This document shows, piece after piece, positions 1 to 26,411 of a stretch of DNA of 57,628 nucleotides. Source of the DNA: an uncultured Ignavibacteriota bacterium (GTDB taxonomy: Bacteria; Bacteroidota; Ignavibacteria; UBA10030; UBA8401). The notes under the pieces are model-generated. The model saw nothing but the letters and a program-made list of their open reading frames with translations. It was not told the DNA's origin and searched no databases. The position numbers and the translations under genes were made by a program. The stretch is taken from contig CAIOTF010000048.1 in the NCBI GenBank assembly GCA_903861125.1, positions 1 through 57,628 on the forward strand. The letters run 5' to 3'. The first letter of the stretch is position 1. Every line of letters begins with the position of its first letter.

Positions 1-1
1 C

Positions 2-6883: not shown

Positions 6884-6913
6884 CAACGCGGGGGGCGCTT
6901 AAGCCCCCCGTTG
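6884..6913 (+). terminator. GC-rich hairpin terminator
   Basis: An 8-bp stem CGGGGGGC/GCCCCCCG with a 6-base loop, extended by CAA/TTG across a two-base bulge, followed by TTGTTATT. It starts 10 bp after the stop codon and separates this gene from the TonB receptor. The T-tract is modest, so some read-through is possible. Confidence 0.75.
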
Positions 6914-6937
6914 TTATTCATAAAAAAAGATATTCGT

Positions 6938-9734: not shown

Positions 9735-12700
9735 ATGAAGGTTAAATTTTCCGCTGTATCATTATTTTTCATGGTCTGTTTTTCATCAATTCCATTGTTC
9801 GGGCAGGTAAGTCCACAAATTCAAGGCTACCGTAATGATGAGAAGGGTGCTTACGTCAACCGGCGTGAAGGGACCATGGATGGGAATAACGTGCGAACGT
9901 TGTATTACAACAATGGCGAAGTCGGACAATGGCCGTATTCGCCGTCGCTTGAGTGGCCCGCTCAGTCCGGTCACCAATATCTGGACGGTGTATGCGTTCT
10001 TGTATCTGCCCAGGTAAGGGCCCCCGGCAATGGTCAATTAATACATCCTTTGGAAACGTCGTATCGTGAAGAAATGCCGAAAGATCCTGTTGACGGATTG
10101 ATCTGGGGATTTGAACCCGTTCCCGGATATATGAATATGAATAAAAACGTTGCAAAGACTCCGGCCATCAACAGGGATTCGATGTCATTCCCCGTAACCT
10201 GGCCGACGGCACTTGGGAAAACGCCGGAGTGGAATGGATATTGGTACGGATATTTCGGACGCGGAGTGAACAATGCCGATTTTGAAACATTCTTTGTGAT
10301 GGATGATTCGAAGGATGGAAAATATAAACGTGCGCCGTACAATTATTATCCGATAGCGGCTGATTCAGCACGGGGCGGTCTTGGTTTGCGCGTTGAGGTC
10401 CGTGGATTTCAATGGTCGCACGTTCTCGCGGAAGATGTTATTTTCTGGCATTATGATATCGTTAATTTGTCCGATACCAAATACGACAGCGCATGTTTTG
10501 GATTCTATTCGGATCCCGGTGTGGGCGGTCCTTCCAGCGGAAATGATGATGCCAATTTCAGCACGGTTCTCGATCTGTGCTACGCGTGGGATCATATGGG
10601 GAAAGGCGAACCGAAATACGGCAACTGGGCCACGGGATACTACGGATATGCATATTTGGAAAGTCCGGGTAACTCCGAAAACCATATCGATGATGATGAA
10701 GACGGTTTGATCGATGAAAAACGCGATGATGGTATTGATAACAATCATAACTGGGTAGGATATGAAGATGTAAATAAAAATGGCAAATGGGATAAAGGCG
10801 AACCACTGAACGACGATCTCGGTGCAGACGGTGTCGGTCCGTTCGATCAGCAATACTTTGGTGCTGATGCAGGCGAAGCCGATGGAATACCGACGCATGG
10901 CGAACCGAATTTTGATGAGACTGATAAAGATGAATCGGACCAGATCGGTTTGACAGCCGTTTCGTTAACGCCCCTGGCAGACAAGGGACCGAACGGCGTA
11001 TGGCCGAAGAATAACGAAGTTGTCTGGAGAAAGATGATGGGAGGATTTGTTGATACAGGAATTGTGAATTCGAACATCAGTATTGTTTTCTCTTCGGGAC
11101 CATTTCCGCTGAACAAAGGTGCGCGTGAACGTTTCTCGATGGCACTGATTATGGGCAACGATCTCGATCAGGTTGTATTCAATAAGACGACTGTTCAGGC
11201 GATCTATAATGCATACTATAACTTCTCAGCACCGCCGCTCACGCCGCATTTAACCGCAGTTGCCGGCGACAAACAAGTGTTTCTGTATTGGGACAACGGT
11301 GCAGAAAATTCGTATGACAGATTTTTACGCAGAAAAGATTTTGAAGGGTATATGATCCTGCGAAGCCAGGAATCGAAATTCACGGATGTGAAAACGATCA
11401 CCGATTCGAAAGGTCAGCCTAAATACTGGAAACCGATCGCGCAATTTGATGTGATCGATACGATCCAAGGTCCCGATCCCATCGGCATCAACGGCGCCCA
11501 TTTCTGGCGAGGAGACAACAGCGGATTGCAGCATTCGTATGTTGATAAAGATGTTAAGAATGGAGTGAAATATTTTTATGCTGTCGTTTCCTACGATCAG
11601 GGCGATCCGTACTATGGGAAAACAGGATTACAGCCGACAGAGTCTCCGAAAATCATGATCGAGGATGTCAGCGGAAAGCTGAAGTTTGTTGATATCAACT
11701 GTGCCGCGGTTGTTCCGAATGCCGCCGCTGCCGGATATGTTCCTCCGCAGATCGATGGATCGCTCACCCGTGTCAGTTCGGGTATCGGTACCGGTTCGAT
11801 CTCGATCCAGATCGTCAATCCTAATACGATTGCTACCGGAGCGGAATATAAAGTACGATTTGATTCGAGCGGAAAATTTCCGGAGTACTCAACGAAGTCG
11901 CTTAACGTTCTCCGTACAATCGGGAGCACAGTCGATACGGTGATGCGCAATGTGAGTCTTGCGGATGTTGCGGGGGATAAATCGAGCTTACCGTTCGACG
12001 GCATGACCCTTTCCGTTAAGAATGATACGAAGATCGTTCTCGATACAATGGGCTGGATAGTCGGTAAACCTTCCGTGTTCATGTTCGTTGTGCCTGACAG
12101 TTCCGCTCCGTCTCTGAATAAATTATGGCCGAGCGATTATGAAATAAAATTCTTTGCGTCAACTGTTGATACCTCCAACGGAGATCTGGATCCGGTCGTT
12201 TACCCGGCGATACCGGTTAACTTCACCATCACCAATACGACATTCGGATACCGGAGTAAGTTCATCATTCAGGATAACGACGGTAACGGTAGATTCACTT
12301 CGGGAGACCTGATAAAACCGCTGGAGTTTACGAACAACAACGCAAACTTGTGGCTCCCGTGGAAAATTTCTTATTTCTATATGGATACACTTTCGCTGCC
12401 GAAAGCCGGCGATAAATATATCTTTAAAACGAAGCGGCCATTCTTTACCGGAGATTATTTTTCATTCAAAACAAAATCTTCGCGGACGGATCTTGATCTA
12501 ACAAAGAGTCAAATGAGCAATATCAGTGTTGTTCCGAATCCTTATGTTGGGTACTCATCGTGGGAACCGAAGAATACCTATGCGTCGGGACGCGGCGACA
12601 GGAAAATTGATTTTATCAATCTTCCGCAGCAATGCACGATACGTATTTACACCGTTTCCGGTTCGCTGGTAAAAACTCTGATTAAAGAATCCGGCGCTAC

Positions 12701-12827
12701 CAATGGAGCGCTTTCGTGGAATCTTATTTCCGAAGACGGAACCGATGTGGCATATGGTTTGTACATCTACCATGTTGATGCTCCGACTGCCGGAACGTAT
12801 ATCGGAAAATTTGCACTTATCAAATAA
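9735..12827 (+). CDS. Large secreted protein with calcium-loop-like motifs and variant C-terminal sorting domain
   Basis: 1030 residues, with a good Shine-Dalgarno (TTGAGGAG) before the ATG and a signal peptide ending about FGQ. The first 300 residues are rich in Trp, Tyr and Gly. An acidic stretch (about 315-400) carries EF-hand/dockerin-like loops such as 'DDDEDGLIDEKRDD' and 'DVNKNGKWDKGE', and another, DNDGNGRFTSGD, lies near residue 848. The middle (about 500-640) looks FN3-like ('VKNGVKYFYAVVSYDQGDP'). The C-terminus is a variant sorting domain (VVPNPYVG..., ending YIGKFALIK). I recognise no enzyme motif. It sits 22 bp behind the TonB receptor and 18 bp before the PorV/PorQ gene, so it may be the receptor's surface partner where SusD is missing (inference). 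Confidence 0.75.
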   Translation: MKVKFSAVSLFFMVCFSSIPLFGQVSPQIQGYRNDEKGAYVNRREGTMDGNNVRTLYYNNGEVGQWPYSPSLEWPAQSGHQYLDGVCVLVSAQVRAPGNGQLIHPLETSYREEMPKDPVDGLIWGFEPVPGYMNMNKNVAKTPAINRDSMSFPVTWPTALGKTPEWNGYWYGYFGRGVNNADFETFFVMDDSKDGKYKRAPYNYYPIAADSARGGLGLRVEVRGFQWSHVLAEDVIFWHYDIVNLSDTKYDSACFGFYSDPGVGGPSSGNDDANFSTVLDLCYAWDHMGKGEPKYGNWATGYYGYAYLESPGNSENHIDDDEDGLIDEKRDDGIDNNHNWVGYEDVNKNGKWDKGEPLNDDLGADGVGPFDQQYFGADAGEADGIPTHGEPNFDETDKDESDQIGLTAVSLTPLADKGPNGVWPKNNEVVWRKMMGGFVDTGIVNSNISIVFSSGPFPLNKGARERFSMALIMGNDLDQVVFNKTTVQAIYNAYYNFSAPPLTPHLTAVAGDKQVFLYWDNGAENSYDRFLRRKDFEGYMILRSQESKFTDVKTITDSKGQPKYWKPIAQFDVIDTIQGPDPIGINGAHFWRGDNSGLQHSYVDKDVKNGVKYFYAVVSYDQGDPYYGKTGLQPTESPKIMIEDVSGKLKFVDINCAAVVPNAAAAGYVPPQIDGSLTRVSSGIGTGSISIQIVNPNTIATGAEYKVRFDSSGKFPEYSTKSLNVLRTIGSTVDTVMRNVSLADVAGDKSSLPFDGMTLSVKNDTKIVLDTMGWIVGKPSVFMFVVPDSSAPSLNKLWPSDYEIKFFASTVDTSNGDLDPVVYPAIPVNFTITNTTFGYRSKFIIQDNDGNGRFTSGDLIKPLEFTNNNANLWLPWKISYFYMDTLSLPKAGDKYIFKTKRPFFTGDYFSFKTKSSRTDLDLTKSQMSNISVVPNPYVGYSSWEPKNTYASGRGDRKIDFINLPQQCTIRIYTVSGSLVKTLIKESGATNGALSWNLISEDGTDVAYGLYIYHVDAPTAGTYIGKFALIK

Positions 12828-12845: not shown

Positions 12846-13877
12846 ATGAAATCGAAGATCACAGCAATTATCAGCGCACTATTCTTACTCATCGCTGCGC
12901 TTCCGGCGCAAAGTTTTGTGTCGGATGTTTCGAAACGGGGCACAACAGCAGCTCCATTCCTTTCCATCCCTCAGGGAGCACGTGCTCTGGGAATGGGAAC
13001 GGCATATGTTGCTGTTGCGGATGACCAAAGCGCCATGTATTGGAATCCGGCAGGAATCGCAAACCTTTCTGGATTCCGGGTGGTTGTTGATTACACGCAA
13101 TGGCTGGCCGACATTAAATATAATTACCTCGGTGCGACCATCAATCTTGGAAATCTGGGCGTTATTGGCTTGAACATGACATCGTCGAGCATTCCGGAAA
13201 TGCGTGTAACAACCGTTGATAATCCTTCGGGAACGGGAGAGATGTTCGGCGTTATGGATGCTGCTGTCGGTGTGACCTATGCGCTGAAACTGACAGATAA
13301 ATTTGCAATCGGATTCAATCCCAAATTTGTCTATCAGAAAATCTGGAAAATGAGTGCCTCGGCGATCGCCATTGATATCGGTGTAAAATATCTTACGCCA
13401 TTCGACGGTATCACGCTGGGTATGTCCATATCAAACTTTGGATCTAAAATGCGGTTATCCGGAAACAATACGATCGTTCTGTACGATCCGGATCCGTTTA
13501 CGTCGGGAAATAATGGTCACATTCCTGCGGATGCGCGGACGGATGAGTGGACGCTGCCGCTGAACTTCAAAGTCGGTATAGCGTACAATGTTTTTGCGGT
13601 CGAAGGCAACCGCCTTGTGCTTGCAATGGATGCATCGCATCCGAGCGATAATTATGAAAGTATTGATCTTGGTGGAGAATACTCATTCAATGATTTTATT
13701 TTCCTCCGCGGCGGTTATAAGTCTTTGTTCCTGCAAAATGCTGAAGAACGGTTCACGCTCGGTTTCGGAATACAACAGGCACTGATCGGCAGCACGCAGC
13801 TGGCGATTGATTATGCGTATCAGGATTATCAACGTCTTAAGAATGTCCAGAAATTTTCCGTAGGTATCATATTCTAA
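12846..13877 (+). CDS. PorV/PorQ-family outer-membrane protein
   Basis: 343 residues with a signal peptide (ALPAQ) and then the family hallmark 'GARALGMGTAYVAVADDQSAMYWNPAGIANL', followed by alternating beta strands typical of a FadL-like barrel ending in a strand with terminal Phe (KFSVGIIF). In T9SS, PorV/LptO shuttles cargo from the translocon to the attachment complex, and related proteins occur as paralogues. This copy could be a dedicated carrier for the sorting-domain enzymes that follow, or a general porin; sequence alone does not decide. It is tightly linked with both neighbours: 18 bp from the upstream gene and 4 bp from the GH9 gene. Confidence 0.85.
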   Translation: MKSKITAIISALFLLIAALPAQSFVSDVSKRGTTAAPFLSIPQGARALGMGTAYVAVADDQSAMYWNPAGIANLSGFRVVVDYTQWLADIKYNYLGATINLGNLGVIGLNMTSSSIPEMRVTTVDNPSGTGEMFGVMDAAVGVTYALKLTDKFAIGFNPKFVYQKIWKMSASAIAIDIGVKYLTPFDGITLGMSISNFGSKMRLSGNNTIVLYDPDPFTSGNNGHIPADARTDEWTLPLNFKVGIAYNVFAVEGNRLVLAMDASHPSDNYESIDLGGEYSFNDFIFLRGGYKSLFLQNAEERFTLGFGIQQALIGSTQLAIDYAYQDYQRLKNVQKFSVGIIF

Positions 13878-13881
13878 TTGT

Positions 13882-15879
13882 ATGATGCGAAGATGGCGGT
13901 TGACGATTATAGCGCTTTGGTGTGTTTGGATATCATCCGCAGCAGCAACGGTGATGGTAAATCAGGCGGGATATCTTCCCAATGCTCAAAAAATATTCTT
14001 TACCACTGCGCTTGCCGACAGCTTTCGGGTAATCGACAAGAACAGCGGCGCTGTCTCTTACGCCGGTAAAATTTCACTGGCCAGAGCAAACGATCCCGCA
14101 ACCGGATTGAATGTATACCGGGGGGATTTTTCCTCTCTGACTCGCCCCGGCACGTATTACATTTCCATTTCTCTCTCCGAACAATCATTTGATTTTTCCA
14201 TCTCCGACACGGTCTTTCATACACTCTTCAATGCTTCCTTAAAGGGTTTCTATTTTCAGCGGTGCGGTCAGTCGCTGAGTGCTTACTTTGCCGGTGTGTA
14301 TGCCCGCGCCGGATGCCACGGGAATGATGGCACGTACCACTCGACCTCTGATTCTTCCGGATTCAGATCCGTGAACGGCGGCTGGCATGATGCGGGTGAT
14401 TTTGGGAAATATATCGTGAATGCCGGGATCACTGTCGGAACATTATTGATGGCATATGAAATGTTTCCCTCGCGATTTAAGGATGATGCTACCGGACTTT
14501 TAGAAAGCGGAAATTCTGTTCCCGACATTCTTGATGAAGTGAAATATGAACTGAAGTGGATGCTGCGTATGCAGCACTCGAGCGGCGGAGTATATTTCAA
14601 AGTGACCCGCGAACAGTTTGAAGGATTCGTTATGCCGTCGGCGGATAACGGCACGCGGTACATCTATCAGATCTCGTCAACCGCAACGGGCGATTTTGCA
14701 GCAGTCTTTGCCCGCGCGGCCCGTGTCTATAAACCGTTCGATCAGACTTTCTCCGATTCATGTCTGGCTGTGTCACGCCGTGCCTGGGCATATTTGCAAA
14801 GTCATACGTCCATTGTCCCTGCAGGAGGGTTCAAGAATCCTTCCGGCACGGCGACCGGTGAATACGGTGACGGCAATGATTCCGACGAACGGCTCTGGGC
14901 GGCAGCGGAACTTTTCTCTGCAACAGGCGAAGCGGAATTCAATACCTACTATACTACCCGATATGCAACAGGCGGACTTATCACGCAGCCGATGAGCTGG
15001 CCGAATGTGCGGACGATGGCTCACCTTGCGTATCTCTACACGCAGCAGGCTTCGGCAAGTACATTAAATAAGATGGCACTACGGCAATCGCTGCTGGATT
15101 ATGCGGCATCGCTTGTCAGCTCAATCAGCACCGACGGATTTTCCGTTTCACTTGCAACCGGTGAATATTACTGGGGGAGCAATTCCGGAGTATTGAACAA
15201 AGCGATACTGCTGATTCTTGCATCACGCGAAAATAAGGATGCATCGATGCTGAATGCAGCATTGGCGCAGCTCAATTATATTTTGGGAAACAACGCGCAT
15301 AACATTTCGTTTGTCACCGGTATCGGCGCTCACCACGTATTGCATCCGCACCACCGCCCGTCGTCATCCGACGGCATTGCTGAACCTGTGCCCGGATTGC
15401 TTGCCGGCGGTCCTGAACAGGGAAGAAGCGATGCCGTGCTGCTTGCTAAATTTTCTTCCTCCACGCCTCCCGCATTAATCTATGCTGACGAAGAAGGAAG
15501 CTACGCATCGAACGAGATTGCTATCAACTGGAACGCGCCGTTGGTATTTGTGGCCGGATATTTTGCTTCGGAAGGATCGAGCACCGGAATTGGAAAAGAA
15601 GAGGGAAAAGGACCGGATGAATTTCAACTGCGGCAGAATTTTCCGAATCCGTTTAATCCTAATACCACCATCAGTTACCGGCTGCCGGAGAACGACCATG
15701 TTTCATTGACCGTGTATGATATGCTCGGGAAGAGGATATCAACGCTTGTAAATCAGCAGCAATCTGCCGGAACGCACTCCGTTGAATTTGACGCTACGGA
15801 ACTTTCAAGCGGTCTCTATATCTACAATGTTCAAACCGGAAAATTTGTCGAATCAAAAAAAATGGTGTTGATCAAATAA
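13882..15879 (+). CDS. Glycoside hydrolase family 9 endoglucanase with T9SS sorting domain
   Basis: 665 residues: signal peptide (to about 22), an N-terminal Ig-like CelD_N domain (about 23-110, 'VNQAGYLPNAQK'), and a GH9 (alpha/alpha)6 domain (about 115-560). Catalytic landmarks are complete: NGGWHDAGDFGKY (167-177, with D170 and D173 as base/water-positioning residues), HPHHRPS (488-494) and SNEIAINWNAPLV with the acid E545. The sorting domain follows (QNFPNPFNPNTT, ending KKMVLIK). GH9 enzymes cut beta-1,4-glucosidic bonds in cellulose or mixed-linkage glucans by inversion. Two possible ATGs (13882, 13885) lie 4-7 bp after the PorV/PorQ stop. Secreted or surface-attached endo-acting enzyme of the island. 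Confidence 0.93.
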   Translation: MMRRWRLTIIALWCVWISSAAATVMVNQAGYLPNAQKIFFTTALADSFRVIDKNSGAVSYAGKISLARANDPATGLNVYRGDFSSLTRPGTYYISISLSEQSFDFSISDTVFHTLFNASLKGFYFQRCGQSLSAYFAGVYARAGCHGNDGTYHSTSDSSGFRSVNGGWHDAGDFGKYIVNAGITVGTLLMAYEMFPSRFKDDATGLLESGNSVPDILDEVKYELKWMLRMQHSSGGVYFKVTREQFEGFVMPSADNGTRYIYQISSTATGDFAAVFARAARVYKPFDQTFSDSCLAVSRRAWAYLQSHTSIVPAGGFKNPSGTATGEYGDGNDSDERLWAAAELFSATGEAEFNTYYTTRYATGGLITQPMSWPNVRTMAHLAYLYTQQASASTLNKMALRQSLLDYAASLVSSISTDGFSVSLATGEYYWGSNSGVLNKAILLILASRENKDASMLNAALAQLNYILGNNAHNISFVTGIGAHHVLHPHHRPSSSDGIAEPVPGLLAGGPEQGRSDAVLLAKFSSSTPPALIYADEEGSYASNEIAINWNAPLVFVAGYFASEGSSTGIGKEEGKGPDEFQLRQNFPNPFNPNTTISYRLPENDHVSLTVYDMLGKRISTLVNQQQSAGTHSVEFDATELSSGLYIYNVQTGKFVESKKMVLIK

Positions 15880-15898
15880 GTATCAGGTGAAAAGGACT

Positions 15899-18217
15899 AT
15901 GACGGCAAAAAGAATAACACGGGTAAGCATGATGATCTTTGTTGCATGTCTTACTTCGTTGGCGCAATATCCAACGCTCGACTCAACATTGCTGATGACG
16001 CAAGTGGGCGGCAGATCCGTTCCATATCAGAATGGAATTCCCCTTCCGTCATTCGAAAAACAACTTCGGCCCACCATTACGCTTAACGGGATTTGGAAAA
16101 AACTCCGCTTTGCCGCAAATCATACGGTCTCCATGTATAACCGCGCCAACAACGGTCTTGCGCTTGTTACCAACGAAGCAGCAAACCGTTTTGCAGTGAA
16201 CTACGATGATACCGGATGGGAATATAAAACGCTTCCCGGCGTGGAGAACAAACTGAATGCGAACGAAAAGACTCCGGAATACTACCAGGATGGCGTTTGG
16301 TACCGGCGTACATTCAGTGTTGGTGATTCGTTGAAAAATAAAAAAGCTACGTTGAATTTTTATTCGGTTAATTACATCTGCGATGTATGGCTGAATGGAC
16401 AATATCTGGGATATCATGAAGGCGGATATACGCCGTTTGCATTTGATGTAACAAAGATCCTCCGGACCGATACCGCTAATGTGATCGCCGTCCGTATCGA
16501 CAATCTTCCATGGGGAAAGCGCAACGATATCGTTCCATTCTATACGTGCGACTGGTTTAATTATACGGGAATCATACACGATGTCTATCTGGAGTTTTCG
16601 CATCCTGTTTCCGTTGTCCGGGCCGATGTGGTACCCAAAGCGGTCAGCGGACTTGTGCAGACGAACATTATTGTTGCCAACAGACTCTCCGTTCCATCCG
16701 ATGTTACCGTTACGTACCGTGTCTTTAAAGCAAAGACAGATTCGGTATCATTAACGAAAGAAGTTTCTGCGGAATTGATTGATCAGGAAGTTTCCATTAC
16801 CGGAACAACAAATCAAACATTGTCGATGCCGAAAGATTCCATCGGAGTTCTTTCGGCGCTCTTTACGGTGCCGAATCCGTCGCTATGGTCTCCCAAAAAA
16901 CCGAATCTCTATATCCTTACGGTGACAGTGAAACTGAATGGAATTGTCGTTGACGAATTTTCCACGCAATTCGGTATTCGCACGGTGAAGACCGACGGGA
17001 CCAAATTTCTGTTGAACGAAAAGCAGGCATTTCTGCATGGTATCGCGCGTCATGAGGACCATCCGAATTACGGAAGAAGCGTTCCGAAGAACATAATCTT
17101 TTCCGATCTGAGCATCATCAAATCGATGAATGCAAATTATGTGCGAACCGGACATTACCCGAATCATCCGTATACATATCTCGTAGCCGATCGGTTGGGT
17201 CTTATCGTTATGGAAGAAATTCCTGTGTGGTGGTTTGATGACGCAACATCGTGGGACATTCAGAACAATCAACGGCACATTCATCACCAGATGTTCCGCG
17301 AAATGGTTTTCCGCGATTACAACCGTCCTTCCATTGCAATGTGGAGCACATCGAATGAATGTAAAGAGGTGGCCGGAAGAGCAGTCTTTAACCGCGCTGT
17401 CCGCACTGAATTGAAGCAGGATTATCCTGATGGGCGTTTGATCACCCAGTCTGCCGCTGCGGACCGGCCGGGTCCGGCAGATCTTTCGCAGGAAGAGTGT
17501 GATGTGCGGGGGTGGACGATGTATTTCGGAATTTTCCACGGCAGTTCATTATTTGGCGGCACAAAAAAATTTATTGAGGATGCTGTGACGGCAAATCCGA
17601 ACAAACCGGTGATGGATACGGAATACGGTTACTGGTCGAGTGAAAGCGGTGCATCGCAGCAGGAGCAGGTAAAGACATTCGATTCAACTTTCGCGGCCTT
17701 TTCGCTGTTTACGCCGATAGATCAGAACGGTGTTGCGCGTGCTACTGCGCCGCTTATGGGTGTCACATGGTGGTGTGCGTTCGACTGGTATACGCATCAG
17801 CAGACGCTCGGGTACCAAAGTATGGGGTTGTTGCGTATGGACCGGACGAATCCAAAACCGGTGTTCACCAATCTAACGACAATGTATAAAAAGTATGTGA
17901 ATGCCAGCGAATACATCAGCGGCATCCGTGCGGAAGAAACTGCTCCGGTGCCGGGGGAGTATATGCTCTGTCAGAATTATCCCAATCCTTTCAATCCAAC
18001 AACGGTGATCAAATATCAATTGCCGGCGCAGAGTTTTGTAACGCTGAAAGTGTACGACGTTCTCGGAAAAGAAATTGCAACATTGGTGCAGTCGCAACAA
18101 GAAGCCGGTGCCCATACAGCGGCATTGTCCGGAAGAGTGCTTTCGAGCGGAGTGTATTTTTACACTTTGACGGCGGGATCTTTTGTTGAAACGAAAAAAA
18201 TGACCGTATTAAAATAA
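15899..18217 (+). CDS. Glycoside hydrolase family 2 enzyme with T9SS sorting domain
   Basis: About 772 residues. I chose ATG 15899 because AAAGG lies just before it; GTG 15887 is the in-frame alternative. Signal peptide ending LAQ, then the GH2 sugar-binding jelly roll (about 55-235, 'VWYRRTF', 'VWLNGQYLGYHEGGYTPF'), an Ig-like domain (about 240-365) and a TIM barrel (from about 366). The acid/base sits in MWSTSNEC (about residue 487) and the nucleophile in MDTEYGYW (about 575). The final Ig domains of the longest beta-galactosidases are absent; the barrel leads straight into the sorting domain (QNYPNPFNPTT, ending KKMTVLK). The family contains beta-galactosidases, beta-glucuronidases and beta-mannosidases; the specificity is not readable here. 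Its stop codon overlaps the next start (TAATG), so the two are probably translated together. Confidence 0.9.
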   Translation: MTAKRITRVSMMIFVACLTSLAQYPTLDSTLLMTQVGGRSVPYQNGIPLPSFEKQLRPTITLNGIWKKLRFAANHTVSMYNRANNGLALVTNEAANRFAVNYDDTGWEYKTLPGVENKLNANEKTPEYYQDGVWYRRTFSVGDSLKNKKATLNFYSVNYICDVWLNGQYLGYHEGGYTPFAFDVTKILRTDTANVIAVRIDNLPWGKRNDIVPFYTCDWFNYTGIIHDVYLEFSHPVSVVRADVVPKAVSGLVQTNIIVANRLSVPSDVTVTYRVFKAKTDSVSLTKEVSAELIDQEVSITGTTNQTLSMPKDSIGVLSALFTVPNPSLWSPKKPNLYILTVTVKLNGIVVDEFSTQFGIRTVKTDGTKFLLNEKQAFLHGIARHEDHPNYGRSVPKNIIFSDLSIIKSMNANYVRTGHYPNHPYTYLVADRLGLIVMEEIPVWWFDDATSWDIQNNQRHIHHQMFREMVFRDYNRPSIAMWSTSNECKEVAGRAVFNRAVRTELKQDYPDGRLITQSAAADRPGPADLSQEECDVRGWTMYFGIFHGSSLFGGTKKFIEDAVTANPNKPVMDTEYGYWSSESGASQQEQVKTFDSTFAAFSLFTPIDQNGVARATAPLMGVTWWCAFDWYTHQQTLGYQSMGLLRMDRTNPKPVFTNLTTMYKKYVNASEYISGIRAEETAPVPGEYMLCQNYPNPFNPTTVIKYQLPAQSFVTLKVYDVLGKEIATLVQSQQEAGAHTAALSGRVLSSGVYFYTLTAGSFVETKKMTVLK

Positions 18218-20016
18218 TGACAAAACGAATTGTAATTATCGTTCTCCTGCTGGTGCCGGCTGTTCTTGCCGCCAAGGTCTATAAAGGGGCGGAGTACCGA
18301 ACAAAGGCATCATATCTCTACGGCCGATTCGAAGTGAGGATGAAATCGGCGCAGCGCGAAGGAATGTTATCCTCATTCTTTACGTACAACGATAATTATC
18401 CGACCACGCCGTGGAACGAGATCGATATTGAAGTGCTCGGACGTTATGCCGACGATATTCAATACAATGCAATCACCCCGGGAACAACCAATCATGTCGG
18501 GCGGCGGCAGACACCGTTCAATCCGAGTTTGGGATTTCATACGTATGCGATTGAGTGGACGCCGACCTACGTTGCATGGTTTATCGATGGTGCTGAATCA
18601 TACCGTCAGACCGGCGCACATATACAAACACTGGTTTATGCGCAAAAGATTATGATGAATGTTTGGATTCAGAATGCGCTGAATTGGTCCGGTCAGTGGA
18701 ACGAAAATTCTCTTCCGGCATTTGCATACTACGACTTTGTCAGTTATTCATCATATACACCGGGCGCAGGAACAAGCGGAACGGATAATAATTTCACCTT
18801 TCAATGGAAAGATGAATTTACTTCGTACGATGCAACCCGCTGGGACCGTGCAACACATACGTGGAGCGACAACCAATGTGATTTCGTGCCGGACAACATA
18901 GTATTCAAAGACGGTATGATGATTCTTTGTCTCACAAAGGATACCAATCTGGGCTATCAGGATATCGTTCCGCCGAATGTTGTCTCAGCCCGTGCTGAAG
19001 CGGACGGTCTGGTGATAAATTTCTTTGAAGAAGTTGACAGCGTTTCTGCAGTAACACTTTCAAATTATCTGGTGCAGAATAATACCGTTATTCAAGCCGA
19101 TCTTTACTCCGATAAAAAGACAGTCCATTTGACCATTGCCGGATACGATACTTCGAATTTAACCAGTGTTATTCTGATGAATATTAAAGACCGGTTTTCT
19201 CCGGCTAATACATTGACGGGGAAGAGTGTAACGATCACAAAACCGAAGCTGCTGACCTTCCCCCTTAAGATCAACTGCGGCGGTCCCGCCGTCAACGATT
19301 TTCTTCCCGATCAGATGTGGAATGCAAATCTGGAATACGGGTATCTGGACGGACAGCAGTTCCAAAATTCCAATACGACCACTGGCTCTACCGATCCGCT
19401 CATCTTCAAGACCGAGCTGAACGGCAGTGCGGAATACCGCGTGCGCGTTCCAAGCGGAACTTATTTTGTTATGCTGATGATGTCGGAAAATTATTTCACG
19501 GCTGCCGGCAAGCGATTGTTTGATATTGCCGTTCAGGGTAATGTTGTGGAAAAGAATCTCGACATATTCGCAAAGATGGGCAAAGCGGTTCAGTATCAGA
19601 AGATCATCCCGAATGTGGTGGTGAAAGAGGGAATATTGGATATACATTTCATGTCGCTGGTCGATAATGCGGTGATCAACGGAATATCGATCATTCAGCT
19701 TTCCACCGGAATGAACGGGACCGGAGAAAAAACACCCGAACGCTGGAACATCGGTCAAAATTATCCTAATCCATTCAACGGTACAACAGTGATCCCATTC
19801 TCGATACCGAACGACGATAATATTTCCATCCAATTTTTTGATACGCTCGGAAGATTGGTCAACGAAAAAAATCTGGGCATGAAGCAGCGCGGCACTCATT
19901 CGGTGGTATGGAATGCCAGGGATACCCGCGGCAATGCGCTTGCATCCGGTGCGTACCTGTATGTTGTTAAAGGCAGCAGCAGCATCTCAACAAAAAAAAT
20001 GTTACTGATACAATGA
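18217..20016 (+). CDS. Circularly permuted GH16 beta-1,3-1,4-glucanase with malectin-like domain and T9SS sorting domain
   Basis: 599 residues with a short signal peptide (to about 19). The GH16 fold is in permuted order. It opens with 'YKGAEYRTKASYLYGRFEVRM', has the catalytic WNEIDIEVLG at 66-75 (nucleophile E68, D70, acid/base E72) and 'FHTYAIEWTPTYVAWFIDG', and only after a short linker (about 182-191, 'GAGTSGTDNN') comes the strand set normally at the N-terminus ('FQWKDEFTSYDATRWDRA', 'NIVFKDGMMILCLT', 193-240). This is the arrangement of the Fibrobacter succinogenes 1,3-1,4-beta-glucanase. It is followed by an SbsA/Ig-like domain (about 252-345), a malectin-like domain (about 349-494, 'LKINCGGPAVNDF') and the sorting domain (QNYPNPFNGTT, ending KKMLLIQ). 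Lichenase activity is the expected function. Confidence 0.92.
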   Translation: MTKRIVIIVLLLVPAVLAAKVYKGAEYRTKASYLYGRFEVRMKSAQREGMLSSFFTYNDNYPTTPWNEIDIEVLGRYADDIQYNAITPGTTNHVGRRQTPFNPSLGFHTYAIEWTPTYVAWFIDGAESYRQTGAHIQTLVYAQKIMMNVWIQNALNWSGQWNENSLPAFAYYDFVSYSSYTPGAGTSGTDNNFTFQWKDEFTSYDATRWDRATHTWSDNQCDFVPDNIVFKDGMMILCLTKDTNLGYQDIVPPNVVSARAEADGLVINFFEEVDSVSAVTLSNYLVQNNTVIQADLYSDKKTVHLTIAGYDTSNLTSVILMNIKDRFSPANTLTGKSVTITKPKLLTFPLKINCGGPAVNDFLPDQMWNANLEYGYLDGQQFQNSNTTTGSTDPLIFKTELNGSAEYRVRVPSGTYFVMLMMSENYFTAAGKRLFDIAVQGNVVEKNLDIFAKMGKAVQYQKIIPNVVVKEGILDIHFMSLVDNAVINGISIIQLSTGMNGTGEKTPERWNIGQNYPNPFNGTTVIPFSIPNDDNISIQFFDTLGRLVNEKNLGMKQRGTHSVVWNARDTRGNALASGAYLYVVKGSSSISTKKMLLIQ

Positions 20017-20065: not shown

Positions 20066-21874
20066 ATGAAGCTCGTTCTCGCATTTCTCGCATGCTTCTT
20101 CACACTCACAATATCTCAGCCTAAGGCAAATAAAATTGATGCGCAGGTGCAAGCGCTGCTGAAAAAAATGACCCTGGAAGAAAAGATCGGCCAGATGACG
20201 CAGGTAGATTATACGGCAATCACCAATCACTACGACGACATCGTCACCTACTCGCTTGGATCCATTTTATGGGGCGGAAGTTCGGAAATTCCGGACATCA
20301 CAGCCAAAGGATGGGCGGCTACGTATGATATGCTTCAAAGTTTTTCTCAGAAGACGAAGCTGAAAGTTCCGCTGATTTTTGGTGTTGATGCAGTGCATGG
20401 TCACAATAATGTGGATGGTGCCGTGATCTTTCCGCACAATGTCGCGCTTGGTGCAACCCGTAGTCCGCAGATCGTGGAGAGAATTGGCGGAATCACAGCT
20501 GCCGAAATGAGAGCAACAGGAATCCAGTGGGATTTTGCACCGTGTGTTGCTGTTTCGCGAAATGAACGCTGGGGAAGAACATACGAAAGTTTCGGTGAAG
20601 ATCCGGAACTTGTCAAACAGTTGGGTGCGGCCTTTGTAAAGGGAATGCAGGGGACAGACTTGAGTAATCCGGCATCCGCGCTGGCGTGTGTGAAACATTT
20701 TCTTGGAGACGGCGGAACAACCAACGGAAAAGATCAGGGAAATACCGAAGTCGACGAAGCAACGTTGCGCGCTGTTCATCTGCCGGGATATGTGGAAGCC
20801 ATTAAAGCGGGAGCAATGTCCATGATGCCTTCGTACAGCAGCTGGAACGGCGTAAAAATGCACGGCAATAAATATCTGCTGACCGACGTGCTGAAAAAAG
20901 AATTAGGATTCAACGGTTTTCTGGTATCGGATTGGGCCGCGATTGATCAGCTTGATACGAATTATAGATCAGCCATCGAAAAGTCGGTCAATGCGGGATT
21001 GGATATGGCAATGATCCCCAACGGACATGGTCAGAAGAACAGTTATATCGATTTCATCACCATGCTGAAAGATCTTGTGAAGAAAAAGAAAGTTCCCATG
21101 AGCAGAATCGATGATGCGGTGAAACGCATTCTCACCGTAAAACTTTCCATGAACCTTGCCGGCAATCTGTATGCGAACAAAGAACTTTTAATACAGGTCG
21201 GATCACCGGAACATCGTAACGTAGCCCGCGAAGCTGTGCGTCAGTCGCTTGTGTTGTTAAAGAACAATAACATTCTTCCGCTGTCGAAAACGGGCATCAA
21301 AATCCACGTTGCGGGTAAATGGGCCGACAGCATCGGTGCACAATGCGGCGGTTGGACAATCGGCTGGCAGGGAATCAGCGGAAATGCAATCTCCGGCGGC
21401 ACAACAATCATGCAGGCGATCAAAAACACGGCAGGCAAAGGAACGAAGATCGGATATTCCGTGGATGGCAGCGGCGCCGACAGTTCGGATATCGGCATTG
21501 TTGTTGCAGCAGAACAACCGTACGCGGAAATGGTCGGTGACCGCACCGATCTGAGTCTCTCGAATGATGATCAGGCTGTGATCAATACCATGAAAGCAAA
21601 AGGGATTCCGGTTGTTGTTATTCTTCTTTCCGGACGGCCGATGATCATCAATTCGTCGCTGGAAAAAGCTGATGCATTTGTAGCAGCATGGCTTCCCGGA
21701 ACGGAAGGTCAGGGTGTAGCCGATGTGCTGTTCGGCGATTTCAATTTTACCGGAAAACTTCCGCATTCGTGGCCGAAGAACATGCAGCAGGTGCCGATCA
21801 ATATCGGCGATAAAGTGTATGATCCTCTCTTCCCGTACGGATTCGGATTGACGTACAAAGAACAAGCGAAATAA
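20066..21874 (+). CDS. Glycoside hydrolase family 3 beta-glucosidase / exo-glucanase
   Basis: 602 residues with a signal peptide (to about 18) and no lipobox or sorting domain, so probably periplasmic. The GH3 TIM barrel (about 25-370) carries '[12 protein letters not shown]', [13 protein letters not shown], the paired KH (210-211) and nucleophile D289 in VSDWAAIDQ. The C-terminal alpha/beta sandwich follows (about 400-600, '[11 protein letters not shown]', '[15 protein letters not shown]', 'PYGFGLTY'). The two-domain layout and the GGWT motif resemble barley exo-beta-glucanase ExoI-type and bacterial beta-glucosidases that trim glucose from beta-1,3/1,4 oligosaccharides. AAAGGA precedes the ATG. 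It lies 49 bp after the permuted GH16 and 10 bp before a lipoprotein GH16. Confidence 0.92.
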
Positions 21875-21884
21875 GCACAGTATT

Positions 21885-22955
21885 GTGAAATGTGCTGCGC
21901 TCATACTTGTACCGGTGTTATCGTTCTTGCTGACGGGATGTAAAAATCCCGTCGAAGAACCGGCAGTGAAAACAACGGAACCGAAAAAATATGAGAACTA
22001 CACGCTGGTCTGGAACGATGAATTCGACGGTACCGCACTTGATCTTTCAAAATGGAACTATGAAACAGGAACAGGTGTCAACGGAGATTTCGGTACAGGT
22101 CAGCTTGACCGGGCTACCAACAGAAAAGAAAATGTGACCATCGCTCAGGGTGTACAGAATGCCGAAGGAGGTTGCCTGGCGATTATCACGCGAAAAGAAC
22201 GATACATCGACCGGGACTATACGAGCGGCAGAATCACTACAAGCGGAAAAAGTTCGTGGGGTCCCGGAAATAGAATTGAAGCACGGGTGATGGCGAGCGA
22301 TGTATTGTATAAAGGACAAGGCTTTGCATTTTGGATGATGCCGGCAGAGAAACCGGCGGATCAGAATACCATTATGTGGCCGCAGGGGGGAGAGATCGAT
22401 ATCATGGAATACGTCGGTTCCATCCCGTATCATAATTTAGGAAGCGTGCATTATGCCTGGTCATGGCTCAATAACCAATGGGCCGATTGGAACCATGGGC
22501 ACAAAGGCGCTTATTATTCTTACGGCACACGTGATGTTCCGCTTTCATCCCCTTCCTACGGCGGATACCCGCCGGCAAAAAATGATACTTCGGCGGGAAG
22601 CAGTGCGTTTCACATTTATGGAATAGAATGGTTCACCAACAGAATTGAATTTGCGGTAGACGGCAATACGTACCATGTGCATTATTTCAATGACGGTGAT
22701 GCGTTTGACGGTGGTGTGGGCGACGGACAAGATGAGGATGGAGCGAAGACAATAAACGGAAAGAGAACATTGTTGTCGGAATACTCCAATCATTTTTCGG
22801 AGTGGCATCCGTTCGAACATCCGTTCTTTGCAATTCTGAGTTCCGGCGTTGGAGGGAACGACAACAAAACGTACGGAGGAGCGATTGTTCCTGAAGCAAT
22901 TTTCCCATGCTCGGTGTATGTGGACTGGGTAAGGGTCTATAAGAAAAACGGATGA
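21885..22955 (+). CDS. Lipoprotein GH16 glucanase (laminarinase-type)
   Basis: 356 residues from a GTG start 10 bp after the GH3 gene. The signal ends in a lipobox (LLTGC, Cys19), so it is a lipoprotein. One GH16 domain in normal order covers about 38-352: 'LVWNDEFDGTALDLSKW' first, then the catalytic GEIDIMEYVG (E170 nucleophile, D172, E175 acid/base), and a final 'YVDWVRVYKK'. The extra Met between D and E is the signature of beta-1,3-glucanases and related GH16 members rather than lichenases. An insertion rich in Gly and Asp (about 262-275, 'GVGDGQDEDG') lies near the cleft end. Acts as an endo-glucanase on laminarin-like glucan; exact linkage uncertain. Confidence 0.9.
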   Translation: MKCAALILVPVLSFLLTGCKNPVEEPAVKTTEPKKYENYTLVWNDEFDGTALDLSKWNYETGTGVNGDFGTGQLDRATNRKENVTIAQGVQNAEGGCLAIITRKERYIDRDYTSGRITTSGKSSWGPGNRIEARVMASDVLYKGQGFAFWMMPAEKPADQNTIMWPQGGEIDIMEYVGSIPYHNLGSVHYAWSWLNNQWADWNHGHKGAYYSYGTRDVPLSSPSYGGYPPAKNDTSAGSSAFHIYGIEWFTNRIEFAVDGNTYHVHYFNDGDAFDGGVGDGQDEDGAKTINGKRTLLSEYSNHFSEWHPFEHPFFAILSSGVGGNDNKTYGGAIVPEAIFPCSVYVDWVRVYKKNG

Positions 22956-23020: not shown

Positions 23021-24262
23021 ATGGCATCCATACCAACAACAGTACAGACACACATCGATCCGTCACAAGGGGGCAACTACAAGATTCCGCTCGCCGTTGT
23101 GACCATGCTCTTTTTTATGTGGGGATTCCTCACATGTCTGAACGATATCCTCATTCCGCACTTAAAGGGAGTGTTCGATCTGAACTACACACAGATCATG
23201 CTCATTCAGTTCACATTTTTTGGTGCATATTTCATCATGTCGATCCCCTCCGGTTCGATCATCGCAAAACTTGGATATCAAAAAGGGATCGTGGTCGGAT
23301 TGCTGACCGCCGGAGTTGGAGCATTATTGTTCTATCCCGCCGCCGCCGCGATATCATACCCGCTCTTTTTAACGGCGCTCTTCGTGCTTGCTTCGGGAAT
23401 CACGCTGCTGCAGGTAGCCGCGAATCCATATGTTGCTGTACTCGGAAGAGCTGATACCGCTTCAAGCCGATTGAATCTTACACAAGCATTCAATTCTCTC
23501 GGGACAACGATCGCACCATACTTCGGCGGTGTACTCATTCTTTCCTCTGTTGCGGGTATGACTCCGCTACAGGAGGCCGAGATGGTGCAAATGCCGTATG
23601 TTGGTCTTGCCGTTGCTCTCGCAGTGCTTGCGGTGGTCATCTGGAGATCGAAATTACCTGTGATCGCTTCGGTGGAGGATCATCATGCAAAAGCAGGAAA
23701 ACTTTCTGATGCGCTGAAATACAGGCATCTCGTCCTCGGCGCTGTCGGTATATTCGTTTATGTCGGCGCTGAAGTATCCATTGGGAGTTTCCTCGTAAAT
23801 TTCCTTGGACAGTCGGACATTGCAGGTCTGCCGGAAGCTACAGCCGCAGGATTTGTGTCGTATTACTGGGGTGGAGCGATGATCGGCAGATTTATCGGTT
23901 CTGCACTTCTGCAAAAAGTGAATGCGGGCAAATTACTTGGTATATTTGCATTGGCTTCATGTGCCTTGGTCTTTACGACCGTGTTCACAACGGGTCATGT
24001 TGCAATGTGGACGATACTGTCCGTCGGGTTATTCAACTCGATTATGTTCCCGACGATCTTCACGTTGGGGATCGACGGGCTCGGTAAATTAACAAGTCAG
24101 GGTTCAAGCGTATTAATCATGGCGATTGTCGGCGGAGCAATTATTCCGCTGGCGCAGGGTGCAATAGCAGATGCGATCGGTATTCATACAGCATTTATTC
24201 TTCCCGCAGTCTGTTACCTCTACATCGTGTTTTACGGATTCATCGGTTCACGCCACTCGTAA
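23021..24262 (+). CDS. gluP: Sugar MFS permease, FucP/GluP (FHS) family
   Basis: 413 residues and about 12 membrane helices. The family signature is clear: '[27 protein letters not shown]' near the N-terminus, '[18 protein letters not shown]' in the middle and [14 protein letters not shown] in the second half. Members import fucose, glucose, galactose or related monosaccharides with protons (or sodium) across the inner membrane. Here it would take up the monosaccharide produced by the GH3 and GH16 enzymes around it; glucose is my guess from the enzymes, not from the protein. AAAGGA before the ATG serves as ribosome-binding site. A perfect hairpin follows the gene. Confidence 0.88.
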
Positions 24263-24312: not shown

Positions 24313-24357
24313 CAAACAAAATTCTCAGTGCACAATAACTGCACAAAGAAAATTATT

Positions 24358-25191
24358 ATGAAGAACATTACCGTTACCGCTGCTGCGCTCATCATTGTTT
24401 TTGGAATTCAAATCGGCGGATGCAAAAATGACGGATCGTCAAAAATTGTTGATCCGGTAGTTGTGCAGGATTCTGTTCCCGCAGTACCCGGGTGGACGCT
24501 GGTGTGGAACGATGAATTTAACGGCACTGCGGTTGATTTGAAAAAATGGGAATATGAAGTGAACGGGAATGGCGGCGGGAACAATGAACTTCAATATTAT
24601 ACAGCGCGTCCCGAAAATTCATTCATCGATAGCGGAAAACTTGTCATTCAAGCCAACAAAGAAACCTATTCCGGGAAATCGTACACATCCGCACGCTTGA
24701 GAACACTGTTCAAAGGGGATTGGCTGTACGGACGCTTTGATATCCGCGCCAAACTTCCATACGGACAGGGACTCTGGCCCGCCATCTGGATGCTTCCTTC
24801 GGATTGGGAATACGGCGGTTGGCCTGCGAGCGGAGAGATTGATATTATGGAACTGCTCGGGCACGAAACAACCAAAGTGTATGGAACAATCCATTACGGA
24901 GCTGACGTTCAGCACCATCTCCAAAAAGGGGGATCGTATTCTCTCTCCCAGGGCACCTTTGCCGGCAGTTATCATACGTTCTCCGTTGTGTGGGATTCGA
25001 CAAGTTTTTATTGGTATGTGGACGGTGTTCAATATTATATGACATATTTTATGTCGCCGTTCGACCGTCGTTTTCACATGCTTCTAAACGTTGCAGTGGG
25101 AGGAAATTGGCCCGGAAGTCCGGATGCATTCACAACATTTCCGCAGATGATGTATGTTGATTATGTGAGAGTCTATAAAAAGGCAAACTAA
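24358..25191 (+). CDS. Lipoprotein GH16 beta-glucanase
   Basis: 277 residues. I prefer ATG 24358 to GTG 24328 because it starts right at a lipoprotein signal (lipobox IGGC, Cys22). The GH16 domain (about 45-276) is in the usual order: LVWNDEFNGTAVDLKKW, NNELQYYT, YGRFDIRAKLPYGQGLWPAIWMLP, the catalytic GEIDIMELLG (E160, D162, E165) and 'YVDYVRVYKK' at the end. It lacks the long insertions of the other lipoprotein GH16 and is close to compact laminarinases / endo-beta-1,3-glucanases. The stop codon overlaps the start of the GH5 gene (TAATG), indicating joint translation. Confidence 0.92.
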   Translation: MKNITVTAAALIIVFGIQIGGCKNDGSSKIVDPVVVQDSVPAVPGWTLVWNDEFNGTAVDLKKWEYEVNGNGGGNNELQYYTARPENSFIDSGKLVIQANKETYSGKSYTSARLRTLFKGDWLYGRFDIRAKLPYGQGLWPAIWMLPSDWEYGGWPASGEIDIMELLGHETTKVYGTIHYGADVQHHLQKGGSYSLSQGTFAGSYHTFSVVWDSTSFYWYVDGVQYYMTYFMSPFDRRFHMLLNVAVGGNWPGSPDAFTTFPQMMYVDYVRVYKKAN

Positions 25192-26411
25192 TGAAAACAT
25201 TGTTCTGCAGCATCGCTCTTTTTTTTATTGTCGCGTCGGTATCTTTTTCCCGGCAATCTTCGTTTGTTTCAACGCGCGGCAGCAGCATTATCACACCGGA
25301 CGGAAAACCGATCATGCTTCGCGGTATCAATCTCGGTAACTGGCTGGTGCCGGAAGGATACATGTTTAAGTTCACCAACACGAATTCTCCGCAGCGGATC
25401 AATGAAGCGTTCAACCAGTTGTTGGGACCGGAAGAAACGAAAAAATTCTGGAAACAGTACCGCGACAATTACATTTCCAAAGAGGATATCGCGTTCATTA
25501 AAAAAAGCGGATTGAACTCCGTCCGCGTTCCGTTCAACTATCGTTTATTTGTTTCGGAAGATCACGATACGCGGTTTGCCGGACCCGGATTTGAAATGCT
25601 GGACAGGGTGATTAAATGGTGTAAAGAAGAGAACCTCTATGTTGTGCTGGATATGCATTGCGCACCGGGCGGACAAACCGGCGATAATATTGATGACAGC
25701 TACGGCTATCCGTTTTTATTTGAGAGTGCCGAAGCGCAGCAGCTAACCATTGACCTGTGGAAAGCAATTGCACGGCGATACGCACGCGAACCGATCGTGA
25801 TCGGATATGATTTTCTGAACGAACCGATCGCCACCTATTTTGATTCGTCTCATTTCAACCAGAATCTTGAGCCGTTGTACAAACGGATCGCTGCCGCAGT
25901 ACGCGCGGTCGATAAAAACCATATTATTTTTCTCGGCGGTGCACAATGGAACGGAAATTTCAAGATATTCGGCCCTCCGTTCGATAAAAAAGCGGTCTAT
26001 ACGTATCACAAATACTGGTGCGATACGACACAGCCGATGATGCAGGAATATGCAGATTTTATGAAGAGATATAACGTACCGATCTGGATGGGTGAATCCG
26101 GTGAGAATACCGATCAGTGGGTCGACGCATGGCGCAGATTGAACGAGAAGAATAATTTCGGTTGGTGTTTCTGGCCGTATAAAAAAATGGATGCAGCAAG
26201 CAATATGGTCTCAATAAAAAGAACGGCGGAGTGGGATTCGGTCATAACGTATGCGAATAAACCAAGAACAACGTATAAAGATATCCGTGATGCAAAACCG
26301 TCCAAAGAAGTGATCAAAAAAGCATTTGCCGATTATCTGGAAAACTGCAAGTTCGCTCGTTGCTCCGTGAACGAAGGATATATGAATGCATTGGGCCTGA
26401 AAAAGCAATAG
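25191..26411 (+). CDS. Glycoside hydrolase family 5 glucanase without sorting domain
   Basis: 406 residues with a signal peptide (to about 21) and a GH5 TIM barrel. Motifs: 'LRGINLGNWLVPEGYMF', 'VRVPFNYRLF', 'LDMHCAPGGQTGDN', acid/base E211 in YDFLNEPI, 'YTYHKYW' and nucleophile E302 in WMGESGEN. The LGNWL and APGGQ motifs recall exo-beta-1,3-glucanase / GH5 subfamilies acting on beta-glucans. It lacks the T9SS domain that its paralogue at 36363 has and ends with a helical tail rich in Lys and Cys (about 345-406). Probably periplasmic. Translation is coupled to the GH16 gene through TAATG, so the two likely degrade the same oligosaccharide. Confidence 0.92.
   Translation: MKTLFCSIALFFIVASVSFSRQSSFVSTRGSSIITPDGKPIMLRGINLGNWLVPEGYMFKFTNTNSPQRINEAFNQLLGPEETKKFWKQYRDNYISKEDIAFIKKSGLNSVRVPFNYRLFVSEDHDTRFAGPGFEMLDRVIKWCKEENLYVVLDMHCAPGGQTGDNIDDSYGYPFLFESAEAQQLTIDLWKAIARRYAREPIVIGYDFLNEPIATYFDSSHFNQNLEPLYKRIAAAVRAVDKNHIIFLGGAQWNGNFKIFGPPFDKKAVYTYHKYWCDTTQPMMQEYADFMKRYNVPIWMGESGENTDQWVDAWRRLNEKNNFGWCFWPYKKMDAASNMVSIKRTAEWDSVITYANKPRTTYKDIRDAKPSKEVIKKAFADYLENCKFARCSVNEGYMNALGLKKQ

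Follow-up and report, generated by a model that had tools for sequence, protein, structure and literature searches.

A gene for a naturally permuted, putative GH16 glucanase

The fold of glycoside hydrolase family 16 (GH16) is known in a naturally permuted form from Fibrobacter succinogenes, whose 1,3-1,4-beta-D-glucanase is a classic example of natural circular permutation (title of PDB entry 1mve; Tsai et al. 2003, via the available parts of PMC4606783 and PMC2395249). A cut at the corresponding place, residue 59 of 2AYH according to the available part of PMC2395249, was engineered in the permuted Bacillus enzymes 1cpm and 1cpn, which are man-made and have neither a natural linker nor extra domains; the native Bacillus-type lichenases (subfamily GH16_21; 1mac, 1gbg, 3o5s, 3i4i) have the same fold and catalytic motif in the normal order. 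Here we describe a gene for a permuted GH16 enzyme in contig CAIOTF010000048.1 of an uncultured Ignavibacteriota bacterium (assembly GCA_903861125.1), the window being the whole contig of 57,628 nucleotides. It is very likely, in our judgement, that the product is a secreted, surface-located permuted glucanase that belongs to a glucan cassette and probably shares a single origin with the Fibrobacter enzyme, the latter being one branch. The kind of rearrangement is known from Fibrobacter, but its distribution is wider and more structured than we have found reported: neither 'permut' nor 'Fibrobacter' occurs in the main text of the GH16 subfamily paper PMC6827312, as far as that text was available, and no report of a permuted GH16 outside Fibrobacter was found in searches of an open-access library, most subscription papers lying beyond that coverage.

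The gene is an open reading frame (ORF) of 599 amino acids (aa) at 18217..20016 (+), of which aa 19-242 form the circularly permuted GH16 domain. A probable signal peptide (aa 1-18, 18217..18270, +), recognised by eye from its hydrophobic start and its AVLAA end, is followed by the C-terminal half of the jelly roll, which carries the catalytic strand and is placed first (aa 20-180, 18274..18756, +); the linker TPGAGTSGTDNN (aa 181-192, 18757..18792, +) then joins the former C- and N-termini, and the N-terminal half is placed last (aa 193-242, 18793..18942, +), where it packs in the same jelly roll in the predicted model. The stretch GAEYRTK...WNEIDIEVLG...FHTYAIEWTP thus comes first, and FTFQWKDEF...GMMILCLT (aa 193-240) last, beyond the linker. 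The initial annotation had proposed this order, with a Gly/Thr linker at the place of the Fibrobacter one and the reverse order in Bacillus lichenases, and these points are borne out by comparison with PDB sequences (phmmer) and, for the permuted order, by the predicted structure. Approximately aa 18-242 match six F. succinogenes chain sequences in a single collinear stretch (E 4e-50 to 8e-48, the best being 3axd at 4e-50), whereas native-order Bacillus-type lichenases (3i4i, 1mac, 1gbg) align over approximately aa 18-180 only.

The window protein and the Fibrobacter enzyme share the permuted order, the cut loop, the place of the linker, the fold and the EXDXE motif, at 36-37% identity; where the former has TPGAGTSGTDNN the latter has TPGQGEGGSD, with YTPGxGxxG as the pattern in common. 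They differ in that the window protein has His for Trp203 and Asp for Asn44, and in that its GH16 domain is followed by immunoglobulin-like (Ig-like), malectin and type IX secretion system (T9SS) domains. The Fibrobacter enzyme carries C-terminal repeats and a basic domain of its own. Identity to the Bacillus-type lichenases is 37-42% over the C-terminal half.

An AlphaFold2 model of aa 19-250, built from an alignment of 42 relatives from genome contigs, has a pLDDT of 94.8 and a pTM of 0.91. In a Foldseek search the top ranks are nine Fibrobacter chains (TM 0.92-0.95 on the query), followed by the engineered 1cpm and 1cpn. The superposition on permuted and native enzymes that the initial annotation had proposed gives the same division, as the model aligns by VIA-align to Fibrobacter 3h0o with Z 35.7 and a root-mean-square deviation (rmsd) of 1.3 (229 residues over 1..232), to Fibrobacter 1mve with Z 35.0 and rmsd 1.4 (230 residues), and to the engineered 1cpn with Z 31.2 (204 residues, and 208 for 1cpm), but to native-order lichenases only over about residues 1-162 (Z about 19.5), for instance to 3i4i with Z 19.6 and 158 residues over 1..162; native 3wvj extends to 1..171. 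Because the model fits the Fibrobacter and engineered structures over nearly its full length, the last segment packs in the same jelly roll, as its first strands. That aa 193-240 do so had been singled out in advance as a decisive point, and it holds for the predicted model. The chain would begin at a hairpin loop that is internal to the normal-order enzyme, run through the catalytic strand to the old C-terminus, and cross the Gly/Thr linker, after which the old first strands would complete the same jelly roll as in the Fibrobacter lichenase.

The order is not peculiar to this gene. Scanning the ORFs of 198 loci with two profiles, one for each half, gave 179 ORFs with the C-terminal half before the N-terminal half, 20 with the reverse, 13 with the C-terminal half alone and two with the N-terminal half alone; the 179 include some genes counted twice, from two collections, and correspond to 138 distinct sequences. 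No candidate intermediate of permutation by duplication (an N-terminal half on both sides, or two C-terminal halves) and no second N-terminal half of the window gene was found above the thresholds used (1e-4 for the C-terminal and 0.02 for the N-terminal half, at which a weak half could escape). The linker pattern YxPGxGxxG is present in 91 of the 138 distinct sequences and a relaxed form in 102; the Fibrobacter enzyme has the pattern too.

Distribution of the permuted form

Counted from match tables, 121 of the 666 genomes searched, which belong to four phyla, carry full-length collinear copies of the permuted form. The window's phylum contributes 35 of 395 genomes; for the phyla to which a Neomarinimicrobiota, a KSB1 and a Calditrichota genome belong, the counts are 44 of 149 (with two copies in ten genomes), 25 of 82 and 17 of 40, respectively. 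A scan of genome contigs gave 421 relatives among 475 candidate stretches, and the best 80 of these 421 were analysed. All 80 have the permuted order, and their titles name Ignavibacteria, unplaced Bacteroidetes, KSB1, Calditrichota and Neomarinimicrobiota; the nearest named locus among them, L045 from an uncultured Ignavibacteriae bacterium, is 90% identical, and there is no Fibrobacter title among these best 80. Further phyla may hold the permuted form among the relatives beyond them. The suggestion in the initial annotation that the permuted form is either older and wider than usually stated or has moved between lineages can thus be taken apart: it is wider, extending to four phyla; the trees described below speak for one origin without requiring it; and some movement or paralogy is likely.

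Phylogeny and relation to normal-order forms

A tree of the reordered halves, also put forward in the initial annotation, was built jointly and on the C-terminal half alone, which is an unbroken segment in either order. The joint alignment has 67 rows, comprising 42 permuted forms, 16 normal lichenase-like forms and nine laminarinases, the 42 being those retained for both trees from 180 permuted rows at less than 66% mutual identity; a third tree omits 18 of the 67, namely nine long or distant rows and the nine laminarinases. In all three the permuted forms, including Fibrobacter, are one clade, with support of 89/92 for both halves, 98/98 for the C-terminal half alone and 100/96 without the long rows. 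The textbook Fibrobacter enzyme therefore seems to be a branch within a large family, and the permutation probably happened once, in the ancestor of a clade that includes it; the fact that the cut loop and the linker pattern are shared also favours one origin.

Among the nearest normal-order forms are lichenase-like genes (the second gene of L033, L039, L040, L041, L188 and L189) that fall outside the permuted clade in the trees, have the N-terminal half before the C-terminal half and, in five of six cases, carry an ATHTF-like motif; the eight closest such genes were chosen by eye from match tables and are not a census. It had also been proposed that permuted and normal forms coexist in the window. 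They do, as the island's other two GH16 genes, at 21885..22955 (+) and 24328..25191 (+), have the normal order, but both are laminarinase-like (the second matching 3azx with E 5e-61 over aa 52-287) and not of the lichenase type. Permuted and lichenase-type normal genes occur together on one contig in three other genomes, G280 (L033), G403 (L188/L145) and G579 (L189/L147), at distances of about 7, 29 and 29 kb respectively. Local duplication, with the two genes of such a pair as parent and product, was considered and rejected because the normal copies group with other normal ones, that of L033 with L188 and L189 (92/80). Should a single old permutation underlie the family, more than 100 natural permuted sequences and their same-contig normal kin in three genomes would allow direct tests of what becomes of a permutation over long evolutionary times. 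The family also offers natural sequences for work on folding, linkers and enzyme engineering.

Catalytic site and predicted activity

The catalytic motif is E68-I-D70-I-E72 (18418..18432, +), and its E, D and E are present in all 138 distinct permuted sequences; the residues presumably have the catalytic roles of their counterparts in the Fibrobacter enzyme. Asn139 and Trp148 (Fibrobacter positions) are likewise kept in 138 of 138 and Trp141 in 137. Members of the licheninase subfamily GH16_21 have EXDXE, without a beta-bulge, rather than EXDXXE, and the window protein has the EXDXE strand expected for that subfamily in CAZy. According to the available part of PMC6827312, the catalytic-strand motif separates GH16 subfamilies, and GH16_21 is characterised by cleaving mixed-linkage glucan strictly at beta-1,4 bonds. 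The product is most likely an endo-beta-glucanase; homology predicts that its substrate is mixed-linkage (1,3-1,4) beta-glucan, in which it would hydrolyse the beta-1,4 bonds with the retaining double-displacement mechanism of GH16.

Alternative explanations

The least credible alternative, to which we give practically no weight, is an incomplete GH16 fold, with the C-terminal segment forming a small domain of its own or the apparent order stemming from an error in assembly or reading frame. In keeping with it, the Pfam GH16 match (PF00722, 102.9 bits against a cut-off of 22) spans just aa 17-151, and the alignment to the NCBIfam model BGlucanaseBglS (NF047856) just aa 18-179. However, the whole domain of the predicted model superposes on the Fibrobacter and engineered permuted Bacillus enzymes, and the same order of halves in 138 distinct sequences with open frames speaks against chance or local assembly error, so that at the level of prediction this explanation already appears refuted; that both profiles see only one half may instead explain why the permutation was missed in annotation. 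A permuted GH16 that acts chiefly on another polymer, for instance laminarin or xyloglucan, is a more serious possibility, if still an unlikely one. The surrounding island is rich in laminarinase-like enzymes, and several observations, which with those on origin given below weigh against the reading that we prefer, bear on the active site. The sugar-stacking Trp203 of Fibrobacter (a site named, with Phe40, in PDB titles of Fibrobacter structures) is replaced by His in 131 of the 138 sequences, including the window protein (H214), and Asn44 by Asp in 91, again including the window protein, and by Glu in 40, so that substrate or subsite preference may differ; moreover, the score against BGlucanaseBglS, an equivalog model, is 159.6 bits over profile positions 78-236 of 237, below its cut-off of 300, and the protein is not classed as BglS. 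On the other hand, the EXDXE motif is present, the nearest solved structures by both sequence and fold are lichenases, and the nearest normal-order forms are likewise closest to lichenases (one query). His also stands at the Trp203 position in five of the six near normal-order forms, and Trp in the more distant L190 and L191.

As to origin, we incline, by a modest measure, to the view that a single old permutation gave rise to what is now the standard lichenase-type enzyme of several phyla of the Fibrobacterota-Chlorobiota-Bacteroidota (FCB) group, a four-domain protein secreted by the type IX system and encoded beside a PorV-family gene and a GH3 gene, with the Fibrobacter enzyme a somewhat deviant branch. 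The permutation would have occurred in the ancestor of a clade now found in Ignavibacteria and their phylum kin, KSB1, Calditrichota and Neomarinimicrobiota. Not all of the data fit: in approximately unbiased (AU) tests, grouping Fibrobacter and the Bacteroidota-type L037 with Bacillus-type forms is not rejected (p 0.423; 0.344 for the C-terminal half), nor is grouping them with FCB normal forms (0.273; 0.268) or with L190 and L191 (0.432; 0.479); Fibrobacter stands beside L037 but moves to L139 once L037 and the long rows are dropped; the linker lies outside even the relaxed pattern in 36 of the 138 sequences, L037 among them; and the KSB1 loci have the PorV neighbour in only three of eight cases and the GH3 neighbour in none of eight. 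Two independent permutations at the same hairpin, one in the Fibrobacter lineage together with L037 and one in the large clade, would accommodate these AU results (p 0.27 to 0.48) and the lack of the usual linker in L037, as well as the presence of the Fibrobacter DWTF motif in L190 and L191, normal-order forms from the KSB1 phylum. We nevertheless regard this as improbable, in that the best trees all join the permuted forms and the cut loop and the linker pattern YTPGxGxxG are common to Fibrobacter and 91 of the 138 sequences. Recent spread of a mobile gene between phyla, as opposed to old inheritance, is also unlikely but is the strongest of these competitors. On a quick tree of 118 rows (including 110 of the 180 permuted rows, at less than 82% identity and at least 190 letters) the phylum label changes 19 times against a minimum of 5, some Calditrichota and KSB1 sequences sitting among others, which makes some lateral spread or paralogy likely; with shuffled labels, however, the mean is 55.9 changes, and the sequences are thus mostly clustered by phylum. 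Paralogs, as in the ten two-copy genomes of the Neomarinimicrobiota-phylum set, add changes too. Among plasmids, 185 records match but all cover less than 80% of the domain; in viral contigs, 204 candidate stretches yielded no gene for a relative. The recurrence of neighbour genes in several phyla is compatible with either old descent or transfer of the whole block. A single old origin remains the reading that we prefer, and the family could serve as a marker for descent versus transfer among FCB phyla.

Domain architecture

In a model of the full-length protein (pLDDT 89.4, pTM 0.78), the GH16 domain is followed by another beta domain, then by one that resembles malectin, and finally by a tail rich in beta structure. 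The Ig-like beta domain (approximately aa 255-341, 18979..19239, +) is recognised from the strands of this model; Pfam Big_5 matches only two of 30 family members, the window protein not among them. The malectin domain (PF11721; aa 350-486, 19264..19674, +) scores 83.1 bits against a cut-off of 23, and the full-length model has human malectin (9ikp) as one of its fold matches; the T9SS type A sorting tail (aa 516-595, 19762..20001, +) scores 30.5 with Por_Secre_tail (cut-off 27) and 35.3 with TIGR04183 (cut-off 23). The joining of malectin and T9SS domains to the GH16 domain in the initial annotation is therefore upheld by curated Pfam cut-offs. Glucan binding is the probable role of the malectin domain, and the sorting tail suggests that the protein is exported through the type IX system to the cell surface.

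All four parts occur together in 121 of the 138 distinct sequences, across four phyla (67 of 75 in the window's phylum, 19 of 20 in KSB1, 19 of 26 in Neomarinimicrobiota and 16 of 17 in Calditrichota), and some of the sequences that depart from this plan end at contig ends. Among other arrangements, the permuted GH16 of Neomarinimicrobiota L127 is fused straight to a GH5-like domain resembling, by eye, the window gene at 36363-38354, and the same fusion is suggested for L077 and L136, also Neomarinimicrobiota, by their length and the missing Ig-like, malectin and tail parts; in L195, from a Neomarinimicrobiota-phylum genome, the C-terminus resembles dockerin repeats by eye. The idea that permutation was needed to permit C-terminal fusions is unsupported, because the normal-order L039 (576 aa, GH16 at approximately 76-295) also has a long C-terminal part.

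The candidate glucan cassette

The permuted gene lies in a series of genes on the same strand. Upstream are a TonB-dependent receptor (6911..9712, +; Pfam TonB_dep_Rec 95.3 bits, scanned from 6944), a 1030-aa protein that we call 'Ext' (9735..12827, +), for which there is no Pfam or NCBIfam match, a PorV/PorQ-family outer-membrane protein (12846..13877, +; NF033709 222.5 bits, cut-off 90) that falls below the cut-offs of the PorV, PorQ and PorV2 models, and GH9 (13882..15879, +) and GH2 (15887..18217, +) genes, each with a T9SS tail. Downstream are a GH3 gene (20066..21874, +), the first of the two laminarinase-like GH16 genes, a glucose/galactose-type transporter of the major facilitator superfamily (23021..24262, +; TIGR01272 387.3 bits, cut-off 202.55), the second such GH16 gene, and a GH5 gene (25191..26411, +).

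Some of these neighbours are conserved. The surroundings of permuted genes were compared in 78 genome-contig loci, over about 3 kb on each side or less where the contig ended. Of these loci, 59 have a PorV-family gene upstream and in the same orientation, 47 have the GH3 and 39 have 'Ext'; the window has the same neighbour series with GH9 and GH2 inserted. By group, the PorV-family gene is upstream in 43 of 54 Ignavibacteria/Bacteroidetes loci, ten of 11 Neomarinimicrobiota loci (with MED-G177) and three of five Calditrichota loci, in addition to the KSB1 loci already mentioned. This operon-like set may serve as a cassette for glucan uptake that includes a PorV-family protein of its own: glucan would be cut at the surface by the permuted enzyme for import and further hydrolysis, with the TonB receptor, the PorV-family protein, GH9, GH2, GH3, the two laminarinase-like GH16 enzymes, GH5 and the sugar transporter as partners. 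The PorV-family protein is possibly a dedicated partner of the permuted glucanase as cargo.

At the two ends of the window, the proteins at 38-2344 and 53942-57493 have nearly the same C-terminal stretch by eye; as the window is one whole contig, this shared end repeat may mark an assembly break. Within the glucan island, the gene at 26572-28737 encodes an arylsulfotransferase-like protein with Pfam ASST, a carbohydrate-binding module (CBM) and a T9SS tail, and the adjoining gene at 28753-31632 appears by eye to encode a second arylsulfotransferase-like protein.

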